Shown here in pieces: positions 24,111 through 64,000 of a DNA stretch of 64,000 nucleotides. Under the pieces are notes generated by a model. It was not told the DNA's origin. It worked only from the letters and a program-made list of their open reading frames with translations, and made no database searches. The translations under genes were made by a program, and so were the position numbers. Location: assembly GCA_011800155.1 (NCBI GenBank), contig CM022372.1, positions 558,001 to 622,000 of the forward strand, read 5' to 3'. Numbering within the stretch: position 1 is the stretch's first letter; every line of letters begins with the position of its first letter. The DNA comes from Flammulina velutipes (Eukaryota > Basidiomycota > Agaricomycetes > Agaricales > Physalacriaceae).

Positions 24111-24729
24111 TGATGCGCATTGTATTAATGCAAGTACGAAAGACCCCAAAATTTGCGATTCTAAGAAGCATTCTTAGTGATAGAACGAACCTATGAGTAC
24201 AAGAACCTCTAGTTACAGACCGAAACGCGTATACGATACAGTGTAAGGAGTTTCCGTGGTACGACCGGAAAACTCCTAAGATTCGTCGGAAAAGCGCCAC
24301 ACGCTGAAGGGCGTGTAGGTATAGCCAAACCACACATGACGATCTTGAATATCATCATCAAAAGTACCCCGATGGAGACATCGTGATCAAATACACTTGA
24401 ACGCGCGAAACTCCGAAATACTTAACGGAATTCGGCGAGTTACCCTTACACAAGGAAACTCTACATAAAGAGACGCAACGTCAGCAAGCAGTTAAACGCT
24501 GGCTGGACTAGCAAACCAAATGTTCATACTACTCAGACGTCGGGATATTACATAGGAGACTCAGGAGTCAGGGTAACCTTTTAGGCTTTCAAAAGATACT
24601 GCTCGATCACCGATCGACTTACTCCGGTGGACTGTTCCTGATCGATTCTCGGGATCCACAAGTAAATCGTTACAAGGACCTACAATACGAGTACTATCGA
24701 CAACTCGTAAAGATACAACGATAGCTTTT

Positions 24730-24744
24730 CCGGAGTACTACCGG
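24730..24744. promoter_or_regulatory. CCG-N9-CGG everted repeat in the LTR
   Basis: CCG at 24730-24732 and CGG at 24742-24744 sit inside perfect 9-bp arms (CTTTTCCGG / CCGGAAAAG). This is one of the cleanest examples of the element-wide motif, and it is kept in both LTRs of copy B. Confidence 0.7.
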
Positions 24745-25040
24745 AAAAGTCCGAACACGATACTAAGAACATACTTGCGCGTCCAGTATACCAAACCTAG
24801 TCGGTACTACTCGGACTCGTAGTATGAAATAAGAATACGAACAAAGGCTAAGAGTTCCTGCTAGACAGGACTCGGCCGCTAATAATAGTGGAAAACGATG
24901 AAATAGTGGAGCTTCCAAGCACAAGGAACAACCTGGCGCCACTGCAAACTCAGTTACGGCGCCACCATTGGTTGGATTCAAAGCAAATAGAAGCCAGAAC
25001 GAATAGGCAGCAATGCCAAGGGCACCATTAGAGGGATATT

Positions 25041-25056
25041 CCGTACATCCTATCGG
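25041..25056. promoter_or_regulatory. CCG-N10-CGG everted repeat upstream of the LTR TATA box
   Basis: ATATTCCG and CGGAATAT arms flank a 10-base spacer, about 65 bp upstream of the putative TATA box at 25119. Zn2Cys6 proteins bind CGG half-sites, so this is a candidate site for the element's own gene X product (inference). Confidence 0.6.
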
Positions 25057-25118
25057 AATATTCCCCCGAACCAGCGGACTCGGTATTATATCCTTATTCA
25101 GACGTATATAGAAAACAC

Positions 25119-25125
25119 TATAAAG
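25119..25125 (+). promoter_or_regulatory. putative LTR TATA box
   Basis: TATAAAG within CACTATAAAGC. The antisense gene Z of copy B has nearly the same CACTATAAAAGC about 50 bp before its ATG. This would place the RNA start near 25150, leaving a long R-U5. Confidence 0.45.
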
Positions 25126-25857
25126 CTAGCTCGTTTGTACTATTTACAGTTTAGCTTACGCCCCCCGTATCCGCAGCCCACAAGCCGTATATACTGGAGG
25201 AATAGACTCTAAGATTTAGTTAGCAAAAGAACCACTGTTTAGATAGGTGGAAATAAGAAACAGAACCAAAGATCTAAGAACTCATTGGAGCTACTTCCCA
25301 TATTAAAGAAGTTGAAGCCAAGTCCTTTGCGATTCAAACGATCCGAGTTTCCGCGGGAAATTCCATCTAAAGAACCTACCAACTCTGGTTGGAGTCCCAA
25401 GTCCCATACAAGTGTGGTTCAGACTGTGCTAGGCTATCTATTCAGGCCCCGACTAGTTGTTGGAGAGTCCTGATTATACAGATAGATACCAGAGCTCCCG
25501 CTCCCTAGTGTGGTTGAAGGTTGTTGGCCTGGGAAGAGCCTCATTAGGTCTCTTTACACACATCCCAATCGGCCTGTGACTTAGTGGCAAACTAGAACTC
25601 AGTTTAAGATCAGATCCCTGTTACCCCGTCGAACTAGTATAAGCATTTTGAGCAGAAGATAGAGAGAAACAGTCCCATAAAACAAAGATACAAAGAACAA
25701 GAACCCGTCCCATACCACCTATTACAAAACGAACGATTGCTACTATAACGTGAAATCCCGCTATAAACATCGGACTTTCCCGCATCGCACCATTGACTTG
25801 TTAGTGTGTGTTTTGTGTGTGTTTTTGTGGCGTTCTTCTACACTGCACATCATATTT

Positions 25858-25876
25858 TGGAGCCCACCGCGAGGGG
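25858..25876 (+). other. primer-binding site, probably tRNA-Cys
   Basis: TGG, the complement of tRNA CCA, begins 5 nt after the LTR end and is followed by AGCCCACCGCGAGGGG. The implied primer 3' end is ...GGGCTCCA, whose discriminator base is U. Established knowledge: U73 is characteristic of tRNA-Cys. Assignment to Cys is inference. Confidence 0.55.
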
Positions 25877-26375
25877 TGATAAATTTGACTTAAACGATCC
25901 CTCTTATTGAGGTTCCTTGAGTTACTTCTACACCTACTTCAAAATTGCACGAAAGCCCAAAGCCAGTAACGCGAACCCCGCGCCTAGCCAAAGCTCAAAC
26001 GATCAAGAACAAATCAGCCGTAGAGCTAACTTGGGTGAAAACTCAAGTGCTCCAGTTGAAAGAGAACTCCGACACGAACGACCGCCTCCAGGCGCATTAT
26101 TCGACGGAACTAAAGCTCAACGTTTAAAACACGTTCAGTCTCAAAAAGCCCAAACAAATCCTTCACCGGATACAGGCTACCCACCTGGATATATACTATC
26201 CACGATCCCTATTTTCCCTAGACTACCTCGGATTATTCCGAGTCCTAGTCCTTTACCGACTTTAACCCCCTCTCCCAACGAACTCCACCAGTTCGATAAC
26301 CTATTCCCAGTCACTCCGCATCCCTTTCTTGAACGATTAAGACAGTCGATTCCCCTTGGAAGACCATTATTCCCA

Positions 26376-27812
26376 ATGTCAGACCAAGGAGACAACGAAG
26401 ATGGTGCAAGAAGACAGGAAAATCCCGTGCCTCCAGCGGCAGCTGGTTATGTTAACCAGCTAAGCGCAGAGACACAAGAACAGATCGCTGGGAAACGTAT
26501 GCCCGTTCCCGGTGCCAAAGACACACCAAGATTCAAAGGCGATAATATTAGGGACTTCCTAACTAGTTGCGAGTTCTTATTCTACGGCAGGGGCATCATG
26601 AGCCCTACAGCCCAAATCGAGATAGCAACTTTGTATGTGGGATATGAAATTAGACGCCAATGGGCGGCTTTACCCGAATATTCAGCCGGAGATTGGCAAG
26701 CCTTCAAAAACGCAGTACAAAAACTGTATAACAAAGGCGACCAAGATAAAGAGTTTACTCTTGAAGAAGTTGAAGAAGTCACTCGCCACTTTCGGGCAAG
26801 GCCGATCGCAACTAAGATGAGATTGATGGAGTTCAGAAGAGAGGTAGTACACAAACTACAGTATCTAATTGATATTGGAGATGTTACTCAAAAGACGGTG
26901 TTGAATATGTTACAGTATTGCTTTGCTGGTCCAGCATGGGCAGCAATATACACCGACTTGCGGGTTTTACCGATCCCACCCAACAATCCTCTTGGACAAA
27001 GATGGACCTTAGTTGACGTGGTCAGAGTAGCTGAAAAATACTTAGAAGAAGTGGAGACGTTCGGAGGAGCCCCTGTAGTTAATGGAGGTGCTACCAACGA
27101 ACGCGAGTTAGTAACACCCTCCACTGCTCGAGTAAAGATTGAAGATATGCACGATCAAGTGGCTAGTATCAACTCACTCACGGATACCTTGAAGGCTTTG
27201 GAAAAAGCACGACAGGATGAAATGAAAGAGATGGAGAAAGCCAGACAAGAAGATACTCGGAGGATGATGAACCTCATGGAACGGATGTCAACGGCCAGAC
27301 AAGTTCAAGTACAGCAGTATCCCACCCAACAAATGGGATACCCACAGTACATACAACAAAGTCAACAAGCGCCATATCCCGTGCAAAACTCGGGATCCTC
27401 CGCACCCAAAGGCTTAGTCCCTATGCCTGCGAACTTCTTACCCCAACGCAGACCAGCTGCTGTGAACGGGAAGTGCTTCTTCTGTGACGAACCCGGACAT
27501 TTCCTTATGGAATGCCCGGAAAAGAACAAACTAGAGAAGGAAGGCTGGATTTACAAACCAGCTAACTCGAACTGGTATTTCCTGCGCAATGGAATTTCTC
27601 TTACACGAAACAAGAATGGACCTAATCCGCTCGAGCAAGTGGCAAAGTTCCAGAGAGAATCGGGATCTACTCTACCAGAAACGCCACAGGTGCAAGCATA
27701 TGAAGGAATCCAACAGGAGGACTTCTTTGCTCCATCTGGAACGATTGACACATCCATATACCAACAGCAGTCGATGGTCGATCCCGCGTATTCAAGGGAG
27801 GATTTCGATTAG
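26376..27812 (+). CDS. gag: Ty3-type Gag, copy A
   Basis: The frame is open from 25917, but the first ATG in it is at 26376 ('MSDQGDNEDGARR'), giving 478 residues. An upstream non-ATG or spliced start remains possible. The capsid-like region includes 'TPRFKGDNIRDFLTSCEFLF', 'QWAALPEYSAGDWQAFKNAV' and 'FTLEEVEEVTRHF'. A coiled-coil/Gln-rich stretch follows, then one zinc knuckle 'CFFCDEPGHFLMEC' (CX2CX4HX4C, about residue 366). Role: virus-like particle and RNA packaging. The protease frame overlaps its last 63 or so nt in the -1 frame. Confidence 0.88.
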   Translation: MSDQGDNEDGARRQENPVPPAAAGYVNQLSAETQEQIAGKRMPVPGAKDTPRFKGDNIRDFLTSCEFLFYGRGIMSPTAQIEIATLYVGYEIRRQWAALPEYSAGDWQAFKNAVQKLYNKGDQDKEFTLEEVEEVTRHFRARPIATKMRLMEFRREVVHKLQYLIDIGDVTQKTVLNMLQYCFAGPAWAAIYTDLRVLPIPPNNPLGQRWTLVDVVRVAEKYLEEVETFGGAPVVNGGATNERELVTPSTARVKIEDMHDQVASINSLTDTLKALEKARQDEMKEMEKARQEDTRRMMNLMERMSTARQVQVQQYPTQQMGYPQYIQQSQQAPYPVQNSGSSAPKGLVPMPANFLPQRRPAAVNGKCFFCDEPGHFLMECPEKNKLEKEGWIYKPANSNWYFLRNGISLTRNKNGPNPLEQVAKFQRESGSTLPETPQVQAYEGIQQEDFFAPSGTIDTSIYQQQSMVDPAYSREDFD

Positions 27813-29017
27813 GCTCGAGGACGGACGGAGGTTCGTCTGAAATACTGCGACAGCGAACCCTCCCTCCTGAGAGCCAAAATACTCAGCATCGTACCAGAAG
27901 TCATAGCGCTATAGAAAAGGAAAAACCAGAAGAGCCTGAACCAGTTGAACCACAAGAGAAGATACCTCAACCCAGAGGTCTAAGAATGGAAGTAGTGATC
28001 CCTACTCGACAGAAACAAGTAAAATTCGTGGAGCCACCAGTGGCGGAAATAGACGATGAAGAACCCGACTTGAGTGAGATACTTAAGGAGGTACTGGAAG
28101 GACCAGAACCCATAGAAAGTCGCAAGGCTGAAGATAAACGGGAAAATCCCGCTAACGCCACGGAAGAAGCCGCAGTAAAGAAGGAAGTAGAAAAACATAA
28201 GAGCTACCAACGCATATCAAAGCTAAAGGATCTCCTTAGTCGGAATCCCGGATGGCGTTCTCTATGGAAGAAACTACTCCCCGAAGAACTATTGGCGACT
28301 AACGAGGCTTGGCAGAAAGACCTGTTAGAAAACTTAAGAGCAAAGAACGTTAAGGTCAACCAGCAGACGGTGGAATCCGACGAAATCCCGGAATATCACG
28401 CAAGTGAAGATCCTATGTACTACTCGATTAACTTACAAAATTCGAGTCAGCTACCTCTAGGATCAGTGGTATGCCATGATTTAGTCGAACAACTGTTTAA
28501 CCATACGGGTTACGCTGGCCCATACCAACTACCACGATCCAATGTTGCAGCTGAAAGTGCTGACCTTCGAACCCTATGGCCCACGATCTTTGGGGCCGGC
28601 AAGAAGGAAAGTCTACTTGATAGCGGGTCCCAAATTGTATCGATGTCGTTAAAAGCCGCGCTTGAATTAGGAATCCCATTCGATCCTTCATTCAACATTA
28701 TTATGGAAAGCGCCGACAAAGGACAAACCCGCACTGCAGGCTTAGCCAGAAACGTAGCATTTGACTTTGGTGGAATAACGTTCTATCTACAAGTTCATAT
28801 CATCAGAGACCCTGCATACGAAGTCCTTTTAGGACGACCCTTTGATGTGATCTCGAGTATCAATACAACCACCCTTAAAGATGGTGCTGTCGTAGCGACT
28901 ATAACAGATCCCAGCAATGGGAAGAAAATCACTTTGCCTACATACAAGAGAGGGCAAATGCCTAGGTATCAGCAACCCGCGGCTATACCGGTTTTTCTGC
29001 AACACTCGAGGAATTGA
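27749..29017 (+). CDS. aspartic protease region of Pol, copy A
   Basis: The frame is open from 27749 (overlapping gag, -1 relative to it) to TGA at 29015-29017. The first ATG is 27986 ('MEVVIPTRQKQVKFVEPP'). Retropepsin signature: 'KESLLDSGSQIVSMSLKAAL' (DSG catalytic Asp) and 'AYEVLLGRPFDVIS' (LLGRPF flap-side motif). An acidic linker of about 200 residues precedes it. Role: processing of Gag-Pol. The next frame (RT) also overlaps its end in the -1 frame, so two successive -1 shifts would be needed to make Gag-Pol. No canonical slippery heptamer was recognised. Confidence 0.82.
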   Translation, partial: HIHIPTAVDGRSRVFKGGFRLGSRTDGGSSEILRQRTLPPESQNTQHRTRSHSAIEKEKPEEPEPVEPQEKIPQPRGLRMEVVIPTRQKQVKFVEPPVAEIDDEEPDLSEILKEVLEGPEPIESRKAEDKRENPANATEEAAVKKEVEKHKSYQRISKLKDLLSRNPGWRSLWKKLLPEELLATNEAWQKDLLENLRAKNVKVNQQTVESDEIPEYHASEDPMYYSINLQNSSQLPLGSVVCHDLVEQLFNHTGYAGPYQLPRSNVAAESADLRTLWPTIFGAGKKESLLDSGSQIVSMSLKAALELGIPFDPSFNIIMESADKGQTRTAGLARNVAFDFGGITFYLQVHIIRDPAYEVLLGRPFDVISSINTTTLKDGAVVATITDPSNGKKITLPTYKRGQMPRYQQPAAIPVFLQHSRN

Positions 29018-32000
29018 TCGAGGATCAAGGAGAGGTTGCTCTAATCATAAGTGATCAAGGGTCTCAGGGAATACATTTGGTGGAAACCTATGTGCCCGGA
29101 GATTCCCGGTCAACTTTCACAACCGAAGCCGTTACGAACCTATACCTAAGAAAATCCACAGAGGGTATTCACAATGCAGTTAAACCCTTGCGCAATGAAT
29201 ATCAATACGAAGAACCGCCTGTAGCATACGATAGCACAGGAAGGGAATTTCCGGGGAATCAACGGAAAATTCCACGCAAGAAGATAGCAGGCTTCCATAA
29301 ACATGGAAACCTGTCTAATACGATAGAAACTTGGAGTCAGCCTTTAACAGACGATCAAAAGTATCCTCCAAGTTTTGAACAGGACTTAGCTAGCCATCAG
29401 TTGGATACAGCGAATATATTCTACGACGTTCCCGCAGAACTAAGTAAAGTGTTTAGCAATCTAACGGTTACACTACCTCCTGAAGCATGGGGCTCAGAAC
29501 AAGTCAAGTTCCTGGAGCAGGTCAAACAGAAGGCAACTCCTGTACAAGTACTAGCTTCAAAGAAATATAAACCAGTGGCGTTGAAGGTCAAACCACACTT
29601 AGGAACCTTACCAGACGAGTTCAGAATTGTGCGAAACATTGTAGGCGATCCCCTGGAGGGAATGCCTGTATTGAATCCCAATCCACCTAAGTTTCAACCC
29701 ACCGGGCGATACACGGAAGAACGAAGAGAACAAGTACAGAAGGACCATACCGGAAATTTCCTATGGCCTCAAGAACGAGATTTGATAGACGACCTCATGT
29801 GCAAACAGAATGAAGGCTTTGCATGGGAAGAATCAGAGAAGGGAAGATTCCGGGAAGACTTCTTCCCGCCAGTAGACATGCCAGTCATACCTCATGTACC
29901 ATGGGTACTAAGGCCAATCAAGATTCCACCGGGAATCTTCAACGAAGTCTGCGCGATAATAAAGAACAAGCTGGACTCCGGCGTGTATGAGCCTTCGAAC
30001 TCGTCATACAGGTCGCGTTGGTTCTGTGTAGTTAAGAAAGATGGCAAGAAACTTCGATTGGTCCATAGCTTAGAACCATTGAATGCAGTTACTATTGCGC
30101 ATTCAGGCTTACCTCCCGCCACCGAAGAATTAGCGGAAGCGTTTGCTGGAAGAGCTTGTGGGGGTACCCTAGACTTGTATGTCGGGTACGACGAACGACA
30201 CTTAGCGGAAAAATCCAGAGACATGACAACGTTCTCTACTCCGTATGGGGCATTACGACTCAAGACCTTACCCATGGGTTGGACGAATTCAGTACCCATC
30301 TTCCACGAAGATGTTACTCATATTCTCAAAGACGAAATACCAGCCTTTACTAGGCCTTACATAGACGATGTACCAGTTAGAGGGCCAGCTACTAGGTACC
30401 AAGATAAAGATGGCAACTACGAGACAATCCGTGAAAATAACGGAATCCGCCGATTCGTATGGGAACATATGATCAACATGAATAGGATCATACAACGCAT
30501 GAAGTACTCGGGGGGAACCTTTTCTGGGCATAAAGCTATCATTTGCGCGAACGAAACCGTAGTAGTAGGTCATACCTGTTGCTATGAGGGACGTAAACCG
30601 GCAGAAGAACGAGTCAAAGTCATATCAGATTGGGTACCTTGTGAATGCTTAAGAGACGTTCGTTCCTTCCTTGGAACCGCAGGCGTTTTCCGAACGTTTG
30701 TGAAAGACTACTCTAAGAAAGCACTGGCAATGACCAGGTTAACAAGAGATGGTGTGTTGTTTCATTGGGGAGAAGAAGAGCAAGCCTCGATGGACTCATT
30801 AAAAAGAGCCCTTGAGACGAGTCCCATGCTGAAACCCTTGAACTATGATTGGGATACTCCGATTATATTATCGGTGGATACCTCTTATATGGCGGTAGGA
30901 TTTTATCTTAGTCAAGAAGATCCTGAAGACCCTAAGAAACGATACTATGCGAAGTTCCTATCGATCACCTTGGATGAACGTGAGGCTAGGTACTCACAAT
31001 CAAAGAGGGAGTTGTTCGGACTTCACCGCGCATTAATGGCGTGCAAGTACTATCTATTAGGTTGTCGAAAGCTGAAGGTAGAAGTCGATGCAAAGTACAT
31101 TAAGGGAATGCTATCAAACATCGACTCCCTTACCAACGGGAACCTACAAAGATGGGCAGAGGAGATACTCATGTTTCACTTCACTTTGGTACATGTACCT
31201 GGAAAAGTCCATGGTCCGGACGGGCTGAGTCGAAGGGTGCCTGCACCTGAAGACATTATCATACCCCGTCCTCCAGGAGATGAAGAAGAAGACGAGCTGC
31301 CTAGCTTTGAGTATGAAGAACCTAACGACTTAGCGGACGAGGACAAGCCTCTTCCCTTCGAGGACTTCAAAGATGCTATAGATACTAAGACAGGTTACCT
31401 GCAAGAAGTACGGGAAATTCCCGTAAGTTTACCGGAAAACCCAGTAAACGACTTCGAGCAGCCCTCAGAAGAATACCGCGCTACTCAACTAGCAGCAATG
31501 GCGGTAGAAGACCTTGAGAAATGGGTAGCAATTGATGAGTTTCCGGACTTAGAAAGGTCAAGTAGAGAAGCACTCTGGGAAACTCTCTTGCCACACGTTG
31601 AAGCTTGCCTACGCAACAGTGAATATGAAACCGAAGAATTGTCCACCAGACAACTATCAACGTTGAAGGACTGGGCATCTAAGGATTTCTTCATTGCGGG
31701 TGGGAAGTTATACAAGAAGCACAAAGAAAACAAGCACCGTCGAGTCCTCTTAGTAGGGAAACGGTTGCCAGTAGTGACTATAGTACATGATAAACATGGC
31801 CATAAAGGACAATACTCAGTTCGACAATTAGTTGGCAAGAGGTTCTGGTGGCCAGGCATGGAAGACGACATGAACTGGTTTGTTAAGACTTGTATTCTTT
31901 GCCAAAAACGACAGAAGATTATCATCCATAAGGAACCTACGATTACACCAACACCAGGAATATTTGAGACTGCTTTTGTGGACACATTCCGAATGCCGAA

Positions 32001-32958
32001 ATCAGGCGGGAAAAATCCGAAGATCAAAAAGTATGACGGCTATAATGCTGTCACAGTGGCTCGATGTGGACTTAGTGGTTGGCCGGAAGCAAGGGCCTTG
32101 ATCAACGAGAACGCGGATACTCTAGGAGACTGGCTCTTCGAAGATATCCTATGTCGTTGGGGATGTATAAAGCAGATCATAACAGATAATGGTCCTGCTA
32201 TTAAGAAAGCGATGGTTCATATTGAAGCCAAGTATGGAGTCAAGGGTATCCTCATTACGCCGTATAATAAACAGGCTAATGGGAAGGTCGAACGCGGACA
32301 TTGGGACATAAGACAATCCTTATTCAAAGTCTGTAGGGGAAATCCCGAAGAATGGCCGGCATACCTACACGAAGTACTATGGGCAGAACGAATCACTGTT
32401 AAACGAACACTTGGACAGTCACCATTTTACGCGGTAACAGGATGTGAACCCATCCTACCGTTAGATATAAACGAAGTGACTTGGTTGGTTGATATTCCGG
32501 ATTCGTTAGTGTCGCATTCAGACTTGATAGCGTTTCGTGCACAACAGCTCATTAAACACAAAGAAGATGTGAAACGTATGAAGCAAAGAGTCACAGACGC
32601 AAAGATTCGAGCAGCGGCTAAGTTCATGGAAGATCATAAGAACAGAATGCCATCTCACAAGTTCAAAACTGGTGAACTGGTATTAGTCCGAAATACTAGG
32701 ATTGAAGAGGAACTTAATCACAAGTTCAAAGAACGATTCATGGGTCCATACGCCGTAGTATCGCGCACGACTGGTGGAAACTATGTCCTATGTGAGCTAG
32801 ATGGATCCTTACTCAAAGACAAGATTGCGCAGTTTCGGGTTATTCCGTTTTATTCACGGAAAGACCCTAGCTTCTTAGGAGACTTGTTCTTCAAGAGACT
32901 ACACATGATACGTGGCTCTGTAGGCAAAGTTATGGACGAATTAAACAAGAAAGCATGA
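28970..32958 (+). CDS. pol: Ty3-type reverse transcriptase / RNase H / integrase, copy A
   Basis: The frame is open from about 28970 (stop TAG just before) through 1314 codons counted from 29014, ending at TGA 32956-32958. RT: 'KKLRLVHSLEPLNAVT', 'GGTLDLYVGYDERHL', 'LPMGWTNSVPIFHEDV', active site 'PYIDDVPV' (about residue 449). RNase H: 'ILSVDTSYMAVGFYL', 'YSQSKRELFGLHRAL', 'VEVDAKYIKGML'. Integrase: HH-CC zinc domain ('HDKHGHKGQYSVRQL', 'CILCQKRQK'), then the catalytic triad D in 'FVDTF', D in 'ITDNGP' and E in 'GKVERGH', the last two about 35 residues apart. No chromodomain was recognised. The RT-RH-IN order is that of Ty3 elements. Intact. Confidence 0.93.
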
Positions 32959-32959
32959 G

Positions 32960-32978
32960 CTGATGGTAGGGATACCAT
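32960..32978 (+). other. hairpin just after the pol stop
   Basis: GATGGTA and TACCATC arms around GGGA, conserved in all three copies directly behind pol. It may be an RNA structure, for example 3'-end or readthrough related. A TATAAAG follows at 32981. Confidence 0.4.
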
Positions 32979-32987
32979 CATATAAAG

Positions 32988-33002
32988 CTTGTGGGGGATA
33001 TA
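32988..33002 (+). other. candidate fossil polypurine tract
   Basis: TTGTGGGGGATATAG lies 30 nt after the pol stop in every copy. A G-rich tract here is where a simple Ty3 element would have its PPT immediately before the 3' LTR. In this family 4-7 kb of further genes follow instead, and the present LTR-proximal tract (ATGGGAGA before 38898, - strand) is different. Confidence 0.35.
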
Positions 33003-33428
33003 GAGGCATTCCCGAATAACGAACGGAATTTACCAGGAATTTTCGATTTTACTTGTTACATATCAACGATACGTTCAAGATGTATTAACATTGAGAATGA
33101 AGATAGTATAGCAGTAACGTTAAAGATATACTGTATACAAACCGTACAAATGATGAATATCTTTTATTAATAAAAGGTACCATTCCCGATGCGGGGTGGG
33201 GAAATTCCCCACAATCTAAGATAAGATTCCGAAGAGCTAGGCCCATCAGAAACGGAATGGCCCTTTCCATTTCGGAGTTGATCGACAGGATCACCGGACC
33301 GGGTCCGTGATGGTGAACTTAAAGAGAAAATTTGAGAAAAACGAACTCACTCTTCAACCACCATCGCAGCGACGCGACTCTGCCAAAACGCGACTTAGAT
33401 CAACGCGACGTCGATTAGTTCAAGTACA
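33003..33428 (+). other. putative promoter/leader of gene X
   Basis: No open gene here. It holds a TATA-like element just upstream (32981-32987), a CCG-N9-CGG site at 33012-33026, and several GC-rich palindromes (around 33185-33305). All three copies share this layout. Confidence 0.4.
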
Positions 33429-35684
33429 ATGTCTACAACTAGCTTCTTTGAATTGAAAGACCGACCCAAGGCGCTCGCATTTGAGCGCCGCCACTTCTCT
33501 AAAAATGCGATCAGACGACTTCGCTTTATTCCCGGCAATTGGCGGACTTTGCCTGTCTGCCACGTTCCGGAGGATTACCGAATCTTCTGGACTCAGTTCG
33601 AGAAGGCGGCCGGCGAACTCAAGCACTCGGCGGCTAACAATAACATATGGCTGGATCAAGTCCTTACAAGGGCTTGGCAGTTATACGAAGAGTTGCCGGA
33701 TGCAACGGTAAGATAAAGATCACGTCGGCAGATTCCGAAATTTTAACGGAATCGAATTAGACAAGTGAAGAGGAAAGTGACAACGAAGAGAGAGTCAAGG
33801 TAAATTTCCTTGAGTCTAACGGGTAAATTCCGGGAAACTCAACGGAAAACCCTTAGGCGCCTGAAAGGAAAGGCAAAGATGTCGACAAGGGTGTCGTCGA
33901 CGAAAAAGACAAGTCCGACGACGAAGATGTCGAACAAGAAGAAGATCAGGACGAAGACAAAGCCAAGGGAGCAAAGTCCAAAGGCAACGTCAAGGTGAGA
34001 TCTGAAAAGAACCAGATTCCGGTATATTCAACGGATTTGGTATAGGACTCAAGCGGCGAGAGCTCTGACGACGCAGAGGTCGTCAAGGCTATGGCCGTAG
34101 CAAAGACCAGTGAAGCTGAAGAAGACTCAGGATCCGAGGGTCCGGAAAATTCAGATGGCGAAGAACAAGTCGACAAGCCCGTCGACAAGGTACGATATCG
34201 ACTTGTTTTAAAAGAAAGCCGTTGAGTTTAACGGAATTCTTAGGATCAAGAAGATCAAGAGGCTCAAGATGAGCCACAAGAAGAAGAAGACGAGCAAGCT
34301 GAAGAGCCTGCTCAAGAAAAGGTTGAAACTCGAACTTGGTTATAGTGAATTCCGCTAATGTTAACGGAATTCCTAGGACCAGGAAGATAGCGAGGCTCGA
34401 GAGGAGCCACGACGAAGGAAAGGCTCGAGCAAAGAGCAAGCAGTAAGTAGCTAAGCTCTAAAGGCTATATTACAGCTAATACGATCTACGATAGAGCGCA
34501 AGGAAAAGTCCGCGCCAACCCCGGAAAGGTCTCCAAGTTCAGAGATCCCACGACCACCTCCCCGAAAGACGAAAACCATGCCAAAGGCTCCAAGTCCAAA
34601 GGTAGTGGCACCTCGACCCGTCCAAGCACCCATGCAGATGCCACCAATGGCAATGGTTAGGCCTGCTAGGGCTCCAATGGCTAAGCCAACCCAAGGTTCC
34701 CAGCAGATGCCCCTTCCGTCCATTGCGATGCCTTCGCCAGAAGAAATCAAGGGCTTGGGAAACCGAAAGTTGTCGAAGCTATCGACAATGGCAGCTCCCG
34801 CAGCAGCTCCGGTAGAGGACCCGGAGGTAGCTTTCATACGAGCGGTGAGCTTTCGCGCCAAGCAAGCGAGAATGGAAGATGACTCCGGACAGGAGGTCGT
34901 GGATGAAGAGGCACCTTCTCCCAAGAAAAAGACCAAGACGACGAAGAAGACAACGACGAAAGCTGTGGGTAAGAAGGTGGCTCCAGCAGCCAAATCTAAA
35001 CCTAGCGTCAAGTCGACTCCGATGTCAAAACCGGACTCGCCCGCGAAAGTCAAGGGAACGAAGAGGACTCGCGAAGTAGAAGATGGCGACGCAGATGGGA
35101 GCAGTGGTGATGATGATGGGAATGAAGACGAAGAACAGCAGGAGAACGACTTCGAGCCGAACGATGATGACTTCGAGCCCGACAACGACGAGTTCCAACC
35201 CTCCGACGAACCAACGGACAATTCCGAGGAAGGGTCGGAAAGTGAAGGGCCTGCGAGAAAGAGGAGAAAAACGGCTAAGGGCGCCGTACCATCAGCCAGG
35301 AGCAAAGGCAAGCGCAAGGCAAAGGAGCCGATTCCAGCAGACAAGCTTTGGAAGTACTCTCAAGTACTTTGCAAGGACTGTCTCAAGAAAAACAAGGAGT
35401 GCAAGTACGCGACCCCTACGACCAAGTCTTGCATACGGTGCCAAGTGATGAAGCTGAAATGCGAGAAGTTGGACCCGGAGTCTGACGCGGTCAAACGTCG
35501 ACCTCAAGCATTGCTGGAAACGATCCAAGACCTGCGAAACGACGTCGACCAGCTGGTCGAGCAAAACGGCAGACTCACGGACGCCGTGAACGATCTACTT
35601 AGGCATTGGGGAGATCCCAATGTCCTAAAGTACTATGGGTTGGCGTCGGGAAATTCCGTGGCAGGACCCAGTCGTCGTCGTTGA
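33429..35684 (+). CDS. retrotransposon gene X: acidic protein with Zn2Cys6 cluster and coiled coil, copy A
   Basis: Seven exons (33429-33707, 33761-33799, 33857-33994, 34046-34189, 34244-34321, 34377-34442, 34497-35684) join into 643 residues. Every exon is a multiple of three, so all six introns are phase 0. The N-terminal 93 residues form a conserved basic/aromatic domain ('RRHFSKNAIRRLRFIPGNWR'). Short exons encode acidic Asp/Glu/Lys-rich blocks. Exon 7 is Pro/Ala-rich, then acidic, then Cys at about 540-570 in the pattern CX2CX6CX9CX2CX6C, a canonical Zn2Cys6 binuclear cluster. A heptad-like coiled coil follows ('LLETIQDLRNDVDQLVEQN'). Family knowledge: such clusters plus coiled coils dimerise and bind CGG half-sites. 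Five of its six introns carry CCG-N9/10-CGG. The role is unknown; self-recognition or regulation is inference. Confidence 0.8.
33735..34367. promoter_or_regulatory. five intronic CCG-N9/10-CGG sites of gene X
   Basis: Sites at 33735-33749, 33830-33845, 34019-34034, 34219-34234 and 34352-34367, one in each of introns 1-5. Intron 6 has none. The half-sites persist in copies B and C for introns 1 and 3 and the last intron of this set, although the spacer bases differ. As RNA each would form a short hairpin, so DNA binding and RNA structure are both possible. Confidence 0.65.
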
Positions 35685-39030: not shown

Positions 39031-39073
39031 AATTCTCCCGGCTCTGCACGTTCCATTGCCAATATTTCTTCAC

Positions 39074-50718: not shown

Positions 50719-50891
50719 TCTTAGACCTCTGGGTTGAGGTATCTTCTTTTGTGGTTCAACTGGTTCAGGCTCTTCTGGTTTTTCCTTTTCTATAGCGCTA
50801 TGACTTCTTGTACGATGCTGAGTATTTTGGCTCTCAGGAGGGAGGGTTCGCTGTCGCAGTATTTCAGACGAACCTCCGTCCGTCCTCGAGC

Positions 50892-52827: not shown

Positions 52828-52846
52828 CCCCTCGCGGTGGGCTCCA
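52828..52846 (-). other. primer-binding site, copy B
   Basis: Inverse complement of the copy A site, identical, 5 nt inside the 5' LTR edge. Confidence 0.55.
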
Positions 52847-52851
52847 AAATA

Positions 52852-54593: not shown

Positions 54594-54644
54594 TCGTGTG
54601 ATTTGAACTTCAAGCTAGACCCCGAAGACACTTGTGCGCCACTT

Positions 54645-54660
54645 CCGTGATTCCTAGCGG
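54645..54660. promoter_or_regulatory. CCG-N10-CGG site upstream of gene Y
   Basis: ACTTCCG and CGGATTT arms about 170 bp upstream of the TTTATAAG element. The copy B counterpart has CGGAATT, a better match to the consensus. Confidence 0.5.
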
Positions 54661-54832
54661 ATTTTCGCATGAAGTCTTCGCCGGCCCCCTTTCTTGTTCT
54701 TAGGGGTTTACAATTTTTGTTTTCCGTATTGGCAATCTTCTATAGCCTATACGTTCGTTATTTTCTTCGCCTTGACGAATACCCGACCCATTAGCCAGTC
54801 GATCATACACCTCCTATTAGATTTGTACATCG

Positions 54833-54840
54833 TTTATAAG
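54833..54840 (+). promoter_or_regulatory. putative TATA box of gene Y
   Basis: TTTATAAG 40 nt before the Y start codon at 54880; the same in copy B (about 41152-41159). Confidence 0.4.
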
Positions 54841-54879
54841 ACTGAACTTTTGTAATGTCTCGGTCTTCGTCTGCCTCAG

Positions 54880-56047
54880 ATGCCTTCTCCTATCGCTTTG
54901 ATTCCTCTATGGGCCAACTTCAAAATCGCCATGATTCCGGGTTTGGACAAGCGATTTTCCGAGGAGGCCTTGGACTTTTTGCAGGCTGAGACTGGTCTCG
55001 CCGTTGCTATATCGTTATATCGCACTGCTCAAGGCTTTCCTATCGTGGCCACACCACTCAATAGCTTGGATCTTACCGCACGGTATACCGATGCGGCTGC
55101 GGACTTGCACTTAGGTCCTGCTCGTCAGATAGACGCTCCTACATTGAGGTTCACCCTAGGCGTAATGGTACGTCTCGGATTTTTCCTTGCATTTCGCAGG
55201 TCTAACTGTCTTGATAGCAACACGCTTCTAGTTTGTGGCATTGCGAACATCCCGACTTTCGTACAGGGCAAGCCTACAACTTAGCTTCGTTGTATATCGT
55301 CTGTCTTCGATTGGTGTCCAACTTCTTTCATGGACGCACGGGAAACTGTACCCTCGATGGTCTTTCCTTCGAAGGATGGCTTTCCAAAGTATATCGCCAA
55401 CCCCATATGCACTTTACGGAGTTGTACTTGGATGCTAGCGCCGATTTCATCGTGAGTTCTTTAACCTATACGCTTTTTCCGTACTAAATCTCGGGATTTT
55501 CCATAGACCAGCGTAATGTTAGGCTATCATAGGGGAGCGCCTGACTCTTTGGGTGGGATCTTTGCCCATCCTGAGGTCTTGGATGCTATCCCTGTCCCTC
55601 TATCTCGTTTGGATGCCAGCGACGTTCAATTGGTCGCTTGGTGGCCTCGTTATCTTTCCGCTAACAACATTCAGCCCGAGTTTGATACTCGTCCTATCAT
55701 GTATGAACGGGTCGTTACCAACGGTTATTCGCCTTTACACGATTTTCCGGCTGGGTTGGTTGACGCTAGTGACCTCAGACTTGGTCCCCACGCCGAACGC
55801 TTCACTGAGTTCGTACCAGAGCCCCATTGTGTTGCTCAACGGCGATCTAGCTCAACGCCTGAACTTGTTCCAATCAGTTCTCCAGTACCAGTGGTCAGAT
55901 CTTTCGTAAGTCTTTCTGTTCGACGTCTAGTGTATTATTCTAACACCTTTCTTCTGATAGACCCACTTCAATACGCTAGGACAGACTATGTGTACCCACT
56001 GTCCCACTAGTCATCCTGCCGTCGACTGTACTCCTCCGACCCAGTAG
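54880..56047 (+). CDS. retrotransposon antisense gene Y (unknown, C-terminal Cys/His motif), copy C
   Basis: Four exons (54880-55167, 55218-55451, 55507-55905, 55961-56047), all multiples of three, give 335 residues. An ATG at 54855 in another frame leads nowhere. The N-terminal half is helical-looking ('LDKRFSEEALDFLQAETGLA'). The middle has many aromatic residues ('LGYHRGAPDSLGGIFAHPEV', 'VAWWPRYLSANNI'). The last exon contains 'CTHCPTSHPAVDC', a CX2CX3HX4C arrangement one residue short of the classical retroviral zinc knuckle CX2CX4HX4C. Overall it looks Gag-like (helical body plus terminal knuckle), but I recognise no family. It is oriented against gag-pol and convergent with X. Confidence 0.68.
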
Positions 56048-56813
56048 TCGGATTTTCCGTTAAAAGTCTATCATCTTGGTGTTAGACACTTAGTCTATAT
56101 CGTGTGTCGGTTATCCTATGTCGTAGCGCTATACCTTCAATTTAGACCCTTTCCTTGTTACCAAGTTCGTTCTGTGGTTCAAATTGATGGTGGCGCGGGA
56201 ATTCCCGTATCTTCATCGGAGTTGAGTATTCTTCATACTATGGCATTCATACTCGTAGCCTCAGGTATATATGGCTTAAGACCTTCGTTGGCTAGTTCTT
56301 CTATGTAACTTGAGACGTACTAGCCTTGGCGTAGTCTCTAGTTATAACCAATGTTCACGCCCTTGATAAGTCCGGAGATCGTCATGATTTAATGGCGTCT
56401 CCCATTGACTTATTAGATGCTATCATACTGGTATCTTTGTTAGTCTACTAAGCTTTCATCCTAGAAGAGTCTGTTTTTCCCACTTGAAAACCCGGAGAAT
56501 CCCTTGTCTCAATGACTTGGTATCTCTTTGTTGGTTTTCAAGCTTTTCTTAATCTTAGTTCACACCATTTTACCAGTTTTTAAGCGTGCTCGCTTTTTCA
56601 TAGGTATGGTCTATCGTATGTATCTAGATATATTTTTGGCACAGAGGCCCGCTAAGTCCCATGTTCTACTCGTATCGTATTGTACAAGTCCAACGAAGAA
56701 GAAAGAGTCCGAGGACAATCCCGACCAAAACCCGGCAAAAGAAACCAAGACTAAAGACTACAAATGTTAGAGGGAGCTAGGCTTCGACCTCCTTCATTTG
56801 CAAACTCCTTCCT
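56048..56813. other. spacer between convergent genes Y and X, copy C
   Basis: Noncoding equivalent of 35685-36450 and 42366-43117. No gene supported. Confidence 0.45.
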
Positions 56814-58945
56814 TTAACGACGACGACTTGGTCCAGCAACGGCATTTTCCGTTGCCAACCCATAGTACGTTAGGACATTGGGATCCCCCCAATGCCTAAG
56901 TAAGTCGTTCACAGCATCCGTAAGTCTGCCGTTTTGTTCGACCAGCTGGTCGACGTCGTTTCGGAGACCTTGTATTGTCTCGAGCAAGGCTTGAGGTCGA
57001 CGTTTGACCAAGTCAGATTCTGGATCCAACTTCTCGCACTTCAACTTCATGACTTGGCAGCGTACGCAGGACTTGGTTGTCGGGGTCGCGTATTGGCATT
57101 CCTTGTTCTTCTTTAGACACTCCTTGCAAAGCACTTGGGAGTACTTCCAGAGTTCATTTTCAGGAATGAGCCCCTTTGCCTTTCGCTTGCCCTTGCTTTT
57201 GTCCGACTTCCCAACTACAGCTCCCTTTACTGTCTTCCGCTTCTTCCTAGCCGGTCCTTCACTTTCCGACCCATCCTCGGAATCGCCCGTTGGCTCATCG
57301 GAGGGTTGGAAGTCGTCGTTGTCGGGCTCGAAGTCGTCGTCGTTCGGCTCGAAGTCGTCCTCCTGCTGTTCTTTGTCTTCATCCTCGCCATCATCACCAC
57401 TGCTACCATCTGCATCGCCATCTTCTACTTCGCGAGTCCTCTTCTTTCCCTTGGCTTTAGCGGGCGAGTCCGGTTTTGACATCGGAGTCGACTTGACGCT
57501 AGGTTTAGATTTGGCTGCTGGAGCCACCTTCTTACCCACAGCTTTCGTCGTTGTCTTCTTCGTCGTCTTGGCCTTCTTCTTGGGAGAAGGTGCCTCTTCA
57601 TCCACGACCTCCTGTCCGGAGTCATCTTCCATTCTTGCTTGTTTGGCGCGAAATCTCACCGCTTGTATGAAGGCCACCTCCGGATCTTCTACCGGAGCTG
57701 CCGCGGGAGCTGCCATTGTCGATAACTTCGACAGCTTTCGGTTTCCCAAGCCCTTGATTTCTTCTGGCGAAGGCATCGCAATGGACGGAAGGGGCATCTG
57801 CTGGGAACTTTGGGTTGGCTTAGCCATTGGAACCTTAGCAGGCTTTACCATTGCCATGGGAGGCATCTGCATCGGAGCTCGAACTGGTCGAGGTACCACT
57901 ACCCTGGGACTTGGAGCCTTTGGCACGGCTTTCGTCTTTCGGGGAGGGGGACGCGGGATCTCTGAACTTGGAGACCTTTCCGGGGTTGGCGCGGACTTTT
58001 CCTTGCGCTTCCCGGAATCCTCTTCCTCGCTCTGTCGTAGATCGTATTAGCTGTAATGTAGCTTTCACCCCTTTTTGAAGCTACTTACATCTTGCTCTTT
58101 GGAGAGCGCTTCCTCTCCTTCTTGATCTTCCTGATCCTAACAAATTCCGTTAACTTTAGCGGAATTTACTATAATCTGGTATCGTACCTTGTCGACTCGC
58201 TTGTCTTCTTCAGGACCCTCGGATCCTGAGTCCTCTTCAGCTTCGCTGGTCCTTGCTACGGCCATAGCCTTGACGGCCTCTTCGTCGTCCGAGCTCTCGC
58301 CGCTTGACGAGTCCTATAGCAAGTCCGTTGAATACATCGGAATCTGGATCTTAGCAGTTCTTACCTTGACGTTGCCTTTGGACTTTGCTTCCTGGGCTTT
58401 GTCTTGGTCTTGACCGACATCTTCATCGTTGGTCTTGTCGTTTTCTTCGCCAACCTCTTCGTCGTTGGCATCTTCACCTTTACCTTCAGGCGTCTAAGGT
58501 TTTTCCATTGAGTTTCCCGGGATTTACCCGTTCGACTCAAGGAAACTTACCTTGACGGTCTCTTCAGTCTTCTTCTCGACCTTTCCTTCGCCGCCACTTT
58601 CATCTTCACTTGTCTAATTCGATTCCGTTAAATTTTCGGAGTCTGCCGACGTGATCTTTATCTTACCGTTGCATCCGGCAACTCTTCGTATAACTGCCAA
58701 GCCCTTGTAAGGACTTGATCCAGCCATACATTATTGTTCGCCGCCGAGTGCTTGAGTTCGCCGGCCGCCTTCTCGAACTGAGTCCAGAAGATTCGGTAAT
58801 CTTCCGGAACGTGGCAGACAGGCAAAGTCCGCCAATTGCCGGGAATAAAGCGAAGTCGTCTGATCGCATTTTTAGAGAAGTGGCGGCGCTCAAATGCGAG
58901 CGCCTTGGGTCGGTCTTTCAATTCAAAGAAGCTAGTTGTAGACAT
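56814..58945 (-). CDS. retrotransposon gene X (Zn2Cys6), copy C
   Basis: The frame can be followed from 'MSTTSFFELKDRPKALAFER' through short acidic exons to the C-terminal 'NAVAGPSRRR'. The Zn2Cys6 pattern CX2CX6CX9CX2CX6C and coiled coil are kept. It differs from both A and B in the linker regions. The intron 2 site has lost one half-site (TGG for CGG, a CpG-to-TpG change); the other intron sites are kept. It stays open although pol of the same copy is broken. Confidence 0.75.
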
Positions 58946-59417
58946 TGTACTTGAAATTGACGTTGTCGCGTTGATCTGTATCGCGTTTTGGCAGAGTCGC
59001 GTCGCTGCGATGGTGGTTGAAGGATGAGTTCGTTTTTCTCAAATTTTCTCTTTAAGTTCACCATCACGGACCCGGTCCGATGATCCTGTCGATCAACTCC
59101 GAAATGGAAAGGGCCATTCCGTTTCTGATGGGCCTAGCTCTTCGGAATCTTATCTTAGATTTTGGGGAATTTCCCCAACCCCGCATCGGAATGGTTCCTT
59201 TTTTCTACAGGAAAGATATTCATAGTTTGTACGGTTCGTAAGCAGTATATCTTTAACGTTACTGCTATACTATCTTTGTTCTTAATGATAATACATCTTG
59301 AACGTATCGTTTGTATGTACCAAGTAAAATCGAAAATTCCTGGTAAATTCCGTTCGTTATTCGGGAATGCCTCTATATCCCCCACAAGCTTTATATGATG
59401 GTATCCCTACCATCAGC

Positions 59418-62400
59418 TCATGCTTTCTTGTTTAATTCGTCCATGACTTTGCCTACAGAGCCACGTATCATGTGTAGTCTCTTGAAGAACAAGTCTCCTA
59501 AGAAGCTAGGGTCTTTCCGCGAATAAAACGGAATAACCCGAAACTGCGCAATCTTGTCTTTGAGTAAGGACCCGTCTAGTTCACATAGGACATAGTTTCC
59601 ACCAGTCGTACGCGATACTACGGCGTATGGACCCATGAATCGTTCTTTGAACTTGTGATTGAGTTCTTCCTCAATCCTAGTATTTCGGACTAATACCAGT
59701 TCACCAGTTTTGAACTTGTGAGATGGCATTCTGTTCTTATGATCTTCCATGAACTTAGCCGCTGCTCGAATCTTGGCATCTGTGACTCTTTGCTTCATAC
59801 GTTTCACATCTTCTTTGTGTTTAATGAGCTGTTGTGCACGAAACGCTATCAAGTCTGAATGCGACACTAAGGAATCCGGAATATCCACTAACCAAGTCAC
59901 TTCGTTTATATCTAACGGTAGGATGGGTTCACATCCTGTTACCGCGTAAAACGGTGACTGTCCAAGTGTTCGTTTAACAGTGATTCGTTCTGCCCATAGT
60001 ACTTCGTGTAGGTATGCCGGCCATTCTTCGGGATTTCCCCTACAGACTTTGAATAAGGATTGTCTTATGTCCCAATGTCCGCGTTCGACCTTCCCATTAG
60101 CCTGTTTATTATACGGCGTAATGAGGATACCCTTGACTCCATACTTGGCTTCAATATGAACCATCGCTTTCTTAATAGCAGGACCATTATCTGTTATGAT
60201 CTGCTTTATACATCCCCAACGACATAGGATATCTTCGAAGAGCCAGTCTCCTAGAGTATCCGCGTTCTCGTTGATCAAGGCCCTTGCTTCCGGCCAACCA
60301 CTAAGTCCACATCGAGCCACTGTGACAGCATTATAGCCGTCATACTTTTTGATCTTCGGATTTTTCCCGCCTGATTTCGGCATTCGGAATGTGTCCACAA
60401 AAGCAGTCTCAAATATTCCTGGTGTTGGTGTAATCGTAGGTTCCTTATGGATGATAATCTTCTGTCGTTTTTGGCAAAGAATACAAGTCTTAACAAACCA
60501 GTTCATGTCGTCTTCCATGCCTGGCCACCAGAACCTCTTGCCAACTAATTGTCGAACTGAGTATTGTCCTTTATGGCCATGTTTATCATGTACTATAGTC
60601 ACTACTGGCAACCGTTTCCCTACTAAGAGGACTCGACGGTGCTTGTTTTCTTTGTGCTTCTTGTATAACTTCCCACCTGCAATGAAGAAATCTTTAGATG
60701 CCCAGTCCTTCAACGTTGATAGTTGTCTGGTGGACAATTCTTCGGTTTCATATTCACTGTTGCGTAGGCAAGCTTCAACGTGTGGCAAGAGAGTTTCCCA
60801 GAGTGCTTCTCTACTTGACCTTTCTAAGTCCGGAAACTCATCAATTGCTACCCATTTCTCAAGGTCTTCTACCGCCATTGCTGCTAGCTGACTAGCGCTG
60901 TATTCTTCTGAGGGCTGCTCGAAGTCGTTTACTGGGTTTCCCGGTAAACTTACGGGAATTTCCCGTACTTCTTGCAGGTAACCTGTCTTAGTATCTATAG
61001 CATCTTTGAAGTCCTCGAAGGGAAGAGGCTTGTCCTCATCCGCTAAGTCATCAGGTTCTTCATACTCAAAGCTAGGCAGCTCGTCTTCTTCTTCATCTCC
61101 TGGAGGACGGGGTATGATAATGTCTTCAGGTGCAGGCACCCTTCGACTCAGCCCATCCGGTCCATGGACTTTTCCAGGTACATGTACCAAAGTGAAGTGG
61201 AACATGAGTATCTCTTCTGCCCATCTTTGTAGGTTCCCGTTGGTGAGGGAGTCAATGTTCAATAGCATTCCCTTAATGTACTTTGCATCAACTTCTACCT
61301 TCAGCTTTCGACAACCTAATAGATAGTACTTGCACGCCATTAATGCGCGGTGAAGTCCGAATAATTCCCTCTTTGATTGTGAGTATCTAGCCTCACGCTC
61401 ATCCAAGGTAATCGATAGGAACTTCGCATAGTAACGTTTCTTAGGGTCTTCAGGATCCTCTTGACTAAGATAAAATCCTACCGCCATATAAGAGGTATCC
61501 ACCGATAATATAATCGGAGTATCCCAATCATAGTTCAAGGGCTTCAGCATGGGACTTGTCTCAAGTGCTCTTTTTAAAGAGTCTATCGAGGCTTGCTCTT
61601 CTTCTCCCCAATGAAACAACACACCATCTCTTGTTAACCTGGTCATTGCCAGTGCTTTCTTAGAGTAGTCTTTCACAAACGTCCGGAAAACGCCTGCGGT
61701 TCCAAGGAAGGAACGAACGTCTCTTAAGCATTCACAAGGTACCCAATCTGATATGACTTTGACTCGTTCTTCTGCCGGTTTACGTCCCTCATAGCAACAG
61801 GTATGACCTACTACTACGGTTTCGTTCGCGCAAATGATAGCTTTATGCCCAGAAAAGGTTCCCCCGAGTACTTCATGCGTTGTATGATCCTATTCATGTT
61901 GATCATATGTTCCCATACGAATCGGCGGATTCCGTTATTTTCACGGATTGTCTCGTAGTTGCCATCTTTATCTTGGTACCTAGTAGCTGGCCCTCTAACT
62001 GGTACATCGTCTATGTAAGGCCTAGTAAAGGCTGGTATTTCGTCTTTGAGAATATGAGTAACATCTTCGTGGAAGATGGGTACTGAATTCGTCCAACCCA
62101 TGGGTAAGGTCTTGAGTCGTAATGCCCCATACGGAGTAGAGAACGTTGTCATGTCTCTGGATTTTTCCGCTAAGTGTCGTTCGTCGTACCCGACATACAA
62201 GTCTAGGGTACCCCCACAAGCTCTTCCAGCAAACGCTTCCGCTAATTCTTCGGTGGCGGGAGGTAAGCCTGAATGCGCAATAGTAACTGCATTCAATGGT
62301 TCTAAGCTATGGACCAATCGAAGTTTCTTGCCATCTTTCTTAACTACACAGAACCAACGCGACCTGTATGACGAGTTCGAAGGCTCATACACGCCGGAGT

Positions 62401-63430
62401 CCAGCTTGTTCTTTATTATCGCGCAGACTTCGTTGAAGATTCCCGGTGGAATCTTGATTGGCCTTAGTACCCATGGTACATGAGGTATGACTGGCATGTC
62501 TACTGGCGGGAAGAAGTCTTCCCGGAATCTTCCCTTCTCTGATTCTTCCCATGCAAAGCCTTCATTCTGTTTGCACATGAGGTCGTCTATCAAATCTCGT
62601 TCTTGAGGCCATAGGAAATTTCCGGTATGGTCCTTCTGTACTTGTTCTCTTCGTTCTTCCGTGTATCGCCCGGTGGGTTGAAACTTAGGTGGATTGGGAT
62701 TCAATACAGGCATTCCCTCCAGGGGATCGCCTACAATGTTTCGCACAATTCTGAACTCGTCTGGTAAGGTTCCTAAGTGTGGTTTGACCTTCAACGCCAC
62801 TGGTTTATATTTCTTTGAAGCTAGTACTTGTACAGGAGTGCCTTCTGTTTGACCTGCTCCAGGAACTTGACTTGTTCTGAGCCCCATGCTTCAGGAGGTA
62901 GTGTAACCGTTAGATTGCTAAACACTTTACTTAGTTCTGCGGGAACGTCGTAGAATATATTCGCTGTATCCAACTGATGGCTAGCTAAGTCCTGTTCAAA
63001 ACTTGGAGGATACTTTTGATCGTCTGTTAAAGGCTGACTCCAAGTTTCTATCGTATTAGACAGGTTTCCATGTTTATGGAAGCCCGCTATCTTCTTGCGT
63101 GGAATTTTCCGTTGATTCCCCGGAAATTCCCTTCCTGTGCTATCGTATGCTACAGGCGGTTCTTCGTATTGATATTCATTGCGCAAGGGTTTAACTGCAT
63201 TGTGAATACCCTCTGTGGATTTTCTTAGGTATAGGTTCGTAACGGCTTCGGTTGTGAAAGTTGACCGGGAATCTCCGGGCACATAGGTTTCCACCAAATG
63301 TATCCCCCCTGAGACCCTTGATCACTTAGGATTAGAGCAACCTCTCCTTGATCCTCGATCAATTCCTCGAGTGTTGCAGAAAAACCGGTATAGCCGGGGT
63401 TGCTGATACCTAGGCATTTGCCCTCTCTTG
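59418..63430 (-). pseudogene. pol: Ty3-type RT / RNase H / integrase, copy C, frameshifted
   Basis: Close match to pol of A and B, but broken. One base is missing near 61862, just after the YIDD region. One base is missing near 62843 (AGGCACTCC against AGGCAACTCC). Two bases are added near 63305. One base is lost near 63397, in the overlap with the protease. The RNase H/integrase part (61676-59418) is a continuous open frame. Confidence 0.88.
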
Positions 63431-64000
63431 TATGTAGGCAAAGTGATTTTCTTCCCATTGCTGGGATCTGTTATAGTCGCTACGACAGCACCATCTTTAA
63501 GGGTGGTTGTATTGATACTCGAGATCACATCAAAGGGTCGTCCTAAAAGGACTTCGTATGCAGGGTCTCTGATGATATGAACTTGTAGATAGAACGTTAT
63601 TCCACCAAAGTCAAATGCTACGTTTCTGGCTAAGCCTGCAGTGCGGGTTTGTCCTTTGTCGGCGCTTTCCATAATAATGTTGAATGAAGGATCGAATGGG
63701 ATTCCTAATTCAAGCGCGGCTTTTAACGACATCGATACAATTTGGGACCCGCTATCAAGTAGACTTTCCTTCTTGCCGGCCCCAAAGATCGTGGGCCATA
63801 GGGTTCGAAGGTCAGCACTTTCAGCTGCAACGTTTGATCGTGGTAGTTGGTATGGGCCAGCGTAACCCGTATGGTTAAACAGTTGTTCGACCAAATCATG
63901 GCATACCACTGATCCTAGAGGTAGCTGACTCGAATTTTGTAAGTTAATCGAGTAGTACATAGGATCTTCACTTGCGTGATATTCCGGGATTTCGTCGGAT
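63322..64000 (-). pseudogene. protease region of Pol, copy C, partial
   Basis: Cut by the window edge. The DSG and LLGRPF motifs are present in one open frame. Its 3' end reads into a different frame than in copy A because of the base lost near 63397. Confidence 0.7.

Follow-up and report, generated by a model that had tools for sequence, protein, structure and literature searches.

The 64,000-nucleotide stretch of Flammulina velutipes DNA analyzed here (contig CM022372.1, positions 558,001 to 622,000; "the window") contains three copies, A to C, of a giant long terminal repeat (LTR) retrotransposon. Its LTRs, gag, aspartyl protease and the order reverse transcriptase (RT)-RNase H-integrase identify it as Ty3 type; in a Pfam scan of pol, RVT_1 fell under its cutoff, and the RNase H and integrase zinc-binding domains scored over theirs. 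The element carries everted CGG dyads (CCG-N9/10-CGG) throughout and encodes, beyond pol, a Zn2Cys6-like protein, X, their putative reader. The main features are as follows.

24108..37159, plus strand: copy A, 3′ end cut off at 37159, where an LTR of copy B starts
24108..25852, plus strand: 5′ LTR of copy A, ends TGATG...CATCA, 5 sites
25911..27812, plus strand: gag, zinc knuckle below cutoff, 3 sites
27749..29017, plus strand: aspartyl protease frame, 2 sites in the portion preceding pol
28966..32958, plus strand: pol (RT, RNase H, integrase), 9 sites
33429..35684, plus strand: gene X, 7 exons, 643 amino acids, with an acidic middle and a C-terminal zinc cluster and long helix
33429-33707, 33761-33799, 33857-33994, 34046-34189, 34244-34321, 34377-34442 and 34497-35684, plus strand: exons of X, drawn by eye from GT-AG introns
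37160..54596, minus strand: copy B, same site peak
43118..44332, minus strand: last-exon open reading frame (ORF) of X, copy B
52852..54596, minus strand: 5′ LTR of copy B, a single LTR that seemingly serves copy C as well, as in a tandem array
54597..64000, minus strand: copy C, 5′ part outside the window
56814..58046, minus strand: last-exon ORF of X, copy C

We counted CCG-Nk-CGG in copy A (24111-37200) for k from 0 to 20. The motif occurs 21 times with k = 9 and 15 times with k = 10; k = 8 gives 4 occurrences, and the remaining spacings give 0 to 3 apiece. The 36 N9 and N10 sites compare with about 4 in dinucleotide shuffles (200 shuffles; on average about 2.2 for each of k = 9 and k = 10, and at most 7). 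Neighboring spacings were flat, and base composition or CpG bias was rejected as the source of the dyads. A preliminary description of this DNA had reported 27 sites against a chance expectation of 3 to 4 and a strong preference for N9 and N10. The excess, the expectation and the preference (21 plus 15 versus 0 to 4 elsewhere) all hold, but the count was too low. Its figures for the LTR (5), gag (3), protease (2) and X introns (5) were correct; those for pol, X exons and other noncoding parts become 9, 7 and 5. It had also described TTCCG...CGGAA arms in many sites; the three examples cited (24730, 25041 and 33735) do have both arms, but only 9 of the 36 sites do by hand count.

The same peak was found in the stretches 37201-50600 (21 N9 and 16 N10 sites) and 50601-64000 (21 and 12), which together contain copies B and C; these are not independent observations because both copies are nearly identical to A. 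No N9 or N10 peak was found in the host block 1-17342 (2 and 2 sites), in the DIRS element at 17343-24107 (2 and 1), in four stretches of other Ty3 elements (L052:6500-10000, L058, L059 and L060; 0 or 1 at each of the two spacings), or in two further flanking stretches (L049:1-5000, 0 and 0; L050:2600-10000, 2 and 0). Five host loci fetched for a TTCCG-N9/10-CGGAA site contained 5 and 4 sites in 15.1 kb; they are not a fair control, since they were selected for holding a site. The excess thus survived comparison with both shuffled sequence and host genes. The proposal that the peak occurs only in this Ty3 family was right as regards the host, DIRS and other Ty3 elements, but a sister family, described below, has its own N9 peak.

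The sites of copy A are listed below.

24254..24268: N9, LTR
24413..24428: N10, LTR
24730..24744: N9, LTR, with longer complementary arms
25041..25056: N10, LTR
25758..25773: N10, LTR
26425..26439: N9, gag
26674..26689: N10, gag
27379..27393: N9, gag
28149..28163: N9, protease
28377..28391: N9, protease
28977..28991: N9, pol/protease overlap, matched in the alignment by a sister-family site, with gaps alongside
29251..29265: N9, pol
29702..29716: N9, pol
30122..30136: N9, pol, kept in the sister family
30429..30443: N9, pol
30859..30874: N10, pol
31421..31435: N9, pol
32345..32359: N9, pol
32845..32859: N9, pol
33012..33026: N9, interval between pol and X
33735..33749: N9, X intron 1
33830..33845: N10, X intron 2
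34019..34034: N10, X intron 3
34219..34234: N10, X intron 4
34352..34367: N10, X intron 5
34510..34524: N9, X exon 7
34798..34812: N9, X exon 7
34809..34824: N10, X exon 7
35019..35034: N10, X exon 7
35203..35217: N9, X exon 7
35224..35238: N9, X exon 7
35475..35490: N10, X exon 7
35773..35788: N10, 3′ region
36279..36293: N9, 3′ region
36447..36462: N10, 3′ region
37003..37018: N10, 3′ region

The X introns are a hot spot, with one site in each of five of the six introns (15.4 per kb). Density in the other parts is 1.6 to 3.6 per kb (LTR, 2.9 per kb), and the 58-base leader has none. Sites in copy A are more evenly spaced than random (coefficient of variation, 0.63 versus 0.96; P = 0.002); even spacing was not significant in the sister-family stretches L051, L052 and L053, the last of which has a 3-kb gap. 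In five of the six X introns (window 33708-34376), the CGG of the site overlaps a branch-point-like TNAAC word near the intron 3′ end. The introns may have arisen from each other by duplication.

The coding test used 1,000 synonymous-codon shuffles per frame. Family 1, as we call the present element, has 8 N9 sites in pol, where 0.90 were expected and none of the 1,000 shuffles reached 8. The protease frame has 3 N9 sites (0.25 expected), one of them in the pol overlap, and the last exon of X has 4 N9 and 3 N10 sites (0.48 and 0.39 expected). Family 1 gag alone showed no significant excess (P = 0.076 for N9 plus N10). For the sister family, the same procedure gave 12 sites versus 0.97 in pol, 7 versus 0.63 in gag, and 4 versus 0.50 in the last exon of its X gene, X2. 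This rejects coding constraint as the cause in pol, in protease and in the last X exon, but not in family 1 gag taken alone. Since pol sites also occupy all three frames, we conclude that the coding sequence accommodates the sites largely by its choice of codons. As the preliminary description had held, the motif is element wide, and coding constraint does not explain it, nor does any single local repeat, given the synonymous shuffles and the even spread in copy A.

Relatives of X, with 32 to 40% identity, are found at many loci of the same genome. Six loci of the sister family, family 2 (19.4 kb; related copies and not independent), contain 69 N9 sites versus 2 to 13 at other spacings from 0 to 23. 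On contig C8, L051 has 30 N9 sites (shuffle mean, 1.9) and L052:1-6000 has 26 (shuffle mean, 1.6); the family 2 stretch L053 has 24. Family 2 dyads are N9 only, as opposed to N9 plus N10 in family 1; L048, a 73% version of family 1, has 14 sites at N9 and 12 at N10. The pol genes of the two families share 81% identity at the protein level and 71% at the DNA level. No pol match lay between 85 and 98% identity among those scored (41 rows, genome-wide; 35 of 254 candidates scored), and for this reason we treat the families as distinct. Their X ends are 29 to 33% identical over the aligned region, with six cysteines invariant.

The half-sites differ as well. Read outward, the family 1 half-site is CGG-A-A-T/A-W-T-Y-C-C, with little preference at the inside positions; that of family 2 is T-R-G/T-CGG-G, with preference mainly inside. 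Of the family 1 half-sites, 39 of 86 contain CGGAA, versus 1 of 112 in family 2 (Fisher P = 4e-16); for RKCGG the numbers are 25 of 86 and 87 of 112 (P = 1e-11 by the same test). In both tests, the paired halves of a site are not independent. Family 1 also has CGG-N6-CCG 21 times and the N7 form 8 times (other spacings, 0 to 6), as well as CGG-N18/19/20-CGG 10, 8 and 6 times (others, 0 to 6), as if palindromic units were repeated about every two helical turns; family 2 has CGG-N6-CCG once. In pol, where family 1 has 9 sites and family 2 has 12, both triplets coincide in the alignment at 2 places, one of which adjoins gaps, and the likeness of the triplet bases between families (0.67 and 0.68) does not exceed that of pol overall (0.709). 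Site positions have turned over between the families, and it therefore appears to be the number of sites, and not any particular site, that is under selection.

Genome-wide, TTCCG-N9/10-CGGAA occurs 348 times versus 57 at N11/12 (reversed controls, 85 and 106), and the family 2 form, CCGMY-N5-RKCGG, 1,351 times versus 547 at N6 (reversed controls, 411 and 447). Among the first 100 family 2 places listed, 65 fall in three stretches of contig C1 totaling about 49 kb (hand count), and the remaining 35 lie elsewhere in the first 2.98 Mb.

The C terminus of X has two relevant features.

35370..35462, plus strand: six-cysteine cluster, C-x2-C-x6-C-x9-C-x2-C-x6-C
35484..35612, plus strand: predicted long helix, probably a coiled coil (model residues 65-107)

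Zn2Cys6 clusters have the spacing C-x2-C-x6-C-x5-12-C-x2-C-x6-8-C. All six cysteines are invariant across the eight X sequences of our alignment A2 (three of them copies A to C), which leaves out the 73% version (L048 and L034), for which the frame used held stops. The Zn2Cys6 spacing was present in 14 of 14 X sequences scanned (the eight of A2 plus P0001-P0006), with a loop of 8 or 9. The Pfam Zn_clus model scored 17.6 bits on the X C terminus, below its curated cutoff of 21, and we therefore call X Zn2Cys6-like and not a certified member; whole X and three X2 proteins gave no Zn_clus match at an E value of 0.1. Searches of PDB sequences with X or an X profile gave weak matches, and Zn2Cys6 chains made up 5 of 11, 3 of 10 and 6 of 7 of them (best E value, 0.019). 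A first structure prediction, from three sequences, was set aside (predicted local distance difference test score, 55.8). In a Foldseek search with a low-confidence model of X, Zn2Cys6 factors took ranks 1 to 16 of 18 PDB matches, each of them weak; these include Pho7 and AlcR, which we take to be Zn2Cys6 proteins. Purifying selection acts on the last X exon (dN/dS, 0.12 to 0.15). Residues 525-630 of X1 had no match in the protein collection; X2 had six, all nameless. The cluster halves of X (window 35370-35462) align to those of GAL4 in swapped order, an arrangement that may be related to the everted site geometry.

GAL4 recognizes CGG-N11-CCG, PPR1 CGG-N6-CCG and LEU3 CCG-N4-CGG. Like these and other Gal4-type Zn2Cys6 activators (PUT3 and HAP1), X combines a six-cysteine cluster with a probable coiled coil, and the dyads, like their sites, are CGG triplets at fixed spacing; X differs in the everted N9/10 spacing, in the swapped cluster halves and in being transposon encoded. 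Copy A thus contains 36 spacing-specific dyads across coding and noncoding sequence, and a sister family has its own version. We consider it very probable that these dyads are DNA sites for the element-encoded Zn2Cys6-type protein X, a putative dimer binder; the basis for X as the reader is domain class, dyad type and one family contrast. That X and its sites diverged together appears the simplest account of that contrast.

VANDAL elements are DNA transposons; unlike them, the present element is a fungal Ty3 LTR retrotransposon with a Zn2Cys6-like X. For VANC, the Arabidopsis VANDAL factor, motif binding and methylation loss are demonstrated (PMC5735166, Nat Commun 2017), whereas a function of X would be drawn by analogy. 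The two systems share an element-encoded protein with a short motif concentrated in its own family, motifs that differ between families, a role for motif density and, within the factor's own gene, introns whose repeats bear the motif; VANC motifs are mainly noncoding and often in tandem repeats (PMC5735166), whereas the present sites are scattered and extend into the coding sequences of gag, protease, pol and X. The present element has the defining VANC-type combination, an element-encoded protein and a family-specific motif enriched in the element. Fungal DNA transposons, those of mushrooms included, also encode TET/JBP dioxygenases, element genes thought to aid escape from methylation-based silencing, as is proposed here for X; these are enzymes of DNA transposons, and the abstract mentions no element-wide recognition motif (PMC12730594). 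In the literature searched, mostly open access, we found no LTR retrotransposon with its own Zn2Cys6 factor among the matches listed.

We propose that X would bind the dyads across its own element as a dimer joined by its coiled coil, with each zinc cluster contacting one CGG, would coat each copy of its family and, perhaps through its acidic middle, would keep element chromatin open, as VANC does for VANDAL. Because X and its motif diverged together, the X of each family would act on that family's copies and leave the host alone. We give this explanation as a whole, in which the element is its own target through X and its copies are kept unsilenced, a probability of roughly 0.55. The step in which X coats the copies and keeps their chromatin open, taken by analogy, stands at even odds. 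Equally balanced is the broader possibility of a private self/non-self code, in which a captured zinc-cluster factor and dozens of sites, even in coding sequence, would be rewritten wholesale when specificity shifts, sister families would be mutually blind, and the swapped cluster halves might set the everted geometry. We regard the element as carrying a probable self-recognition system, here in a fungal LTR retrotransposon. If this is true, sequence-specific self-recognition by transposons reaches beyond a plant lineage of DNA transposons to LTR retrotransposons of fungi, where it uses a different protein class and sites superimposed on protein-coding sequence. Sister families with 81% identical pol and different readers and sites make protein/site coevolution directly testable in one genome and, if the proposal holds, are natural site libraries for two Zn2Cys6 specificities.

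X might instead be an ordinary transcription activator for which only the LTR or flanking sites count. Zn2Cys6 proteins are mostly activators, and the LTR has five sites at 2.9 per kb, but 31 of the 36 sites lie outside the LTR and pol alone far exceeds its synonymous expectation (8 N9 sites versus 0.9), which makes this account unlikely. Somewhat more doubtful is a role in which X marks old copies as landing places and, by tethering integration complexes to them, leads new copies to nest there. The three tandem or abutting copies in the window and six X2-like matches inside C8:0.37-1.02 Mb fit such a role; nesting, however, is common in LTR elements without such sites. Repression of its own family by element-wide binding, as copy number control, would fit the sequence data equally well, but a selfish element is less expected to carry a repressor than an activator, and both families are present in many copies; we regard it as improbable.

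We attach a similarly low probability to a host Zn2Cys6 factor as the reader in place of X. The genome has 35 Zn_clus matches with an E value of 0.001 or better, but two sister families in one genome have different half-sites along with different X proteins, and 65 of the first 100 family 2 places are concentrated in the three stretches of C1. The dyads could also be RNA hairpins acting as packaging, stability or translation signals, since CCG...CGG pairing is possible and some sites, such as 24730, have longer complementary arms. Of 43 position tests, however, 41 showed no more agreement between the arms than would arise if each were drawn independently from the half-site logo (P > 0.02). The other two concern A/T-rich positions of family 1: +3 for N9 sites (P = 0.003) and +4 for N10 sites (P = 0.011). 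Half-sites follow the consensus largely independently, and five sites lie within introns. Hairpins were rejected on this basis and we consider them very improbable.

Several results weigh against self-recognition through X or lend it no help. A third X version (X2b; L056 and L057) has no N9 excess inside its X gene; X2 alone gives no Zn_clus or Zn2Cys6 match; the structure prediction for X is of low confidence; and no relatives in DNA of other species were confirmed in viral or genome contig collections (two scans each). CpG depletion, computed as a trace of silencing, gave no signal, a measure that decides nothing because young motif-free Ty3 elements (L058-L060) are also undepleted. Two other transposable element stretches are CpG depleted (L049:1-5000, 0.66; L052:6500-10000, 0.60), and methylation-like decay therefore seems to occur in this genome.

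Compared in pieces over 50 bases, X2b and X2 DNA are 69 to 79% identical, whereas the DNA 3′ of them is 91 to 93% identical. In family 1, the X block (window 33100-36100) is 80 to 95% identical among copies A, B and C and L048, versus 97 to 100% in other aligned blocks, and dS is 0.31 to 0.40 in the X block versus 0.05 in pol; judged from these values, the block looks like an exchanged cassette. Among the 120 pol matches listed, the named fungi are Lentinula, Armillaria, Agrocybe and Mycena, whose pol matches have 62 to 65% identity across the RT region; one relative, P0091, is filed as an archaeal metagenome bin (Thermoplasmataceae), probably through contamination. Both families have antisense ORFs 3′ of X (L043:2620-3231, 203 amino acids, and L048:6373-6876, 167 amino acids; minus strand), without a Pfam match. 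An additional antisense ORF, at L048:9237-9695 and also in L047, contains MPPK or MAPPK.

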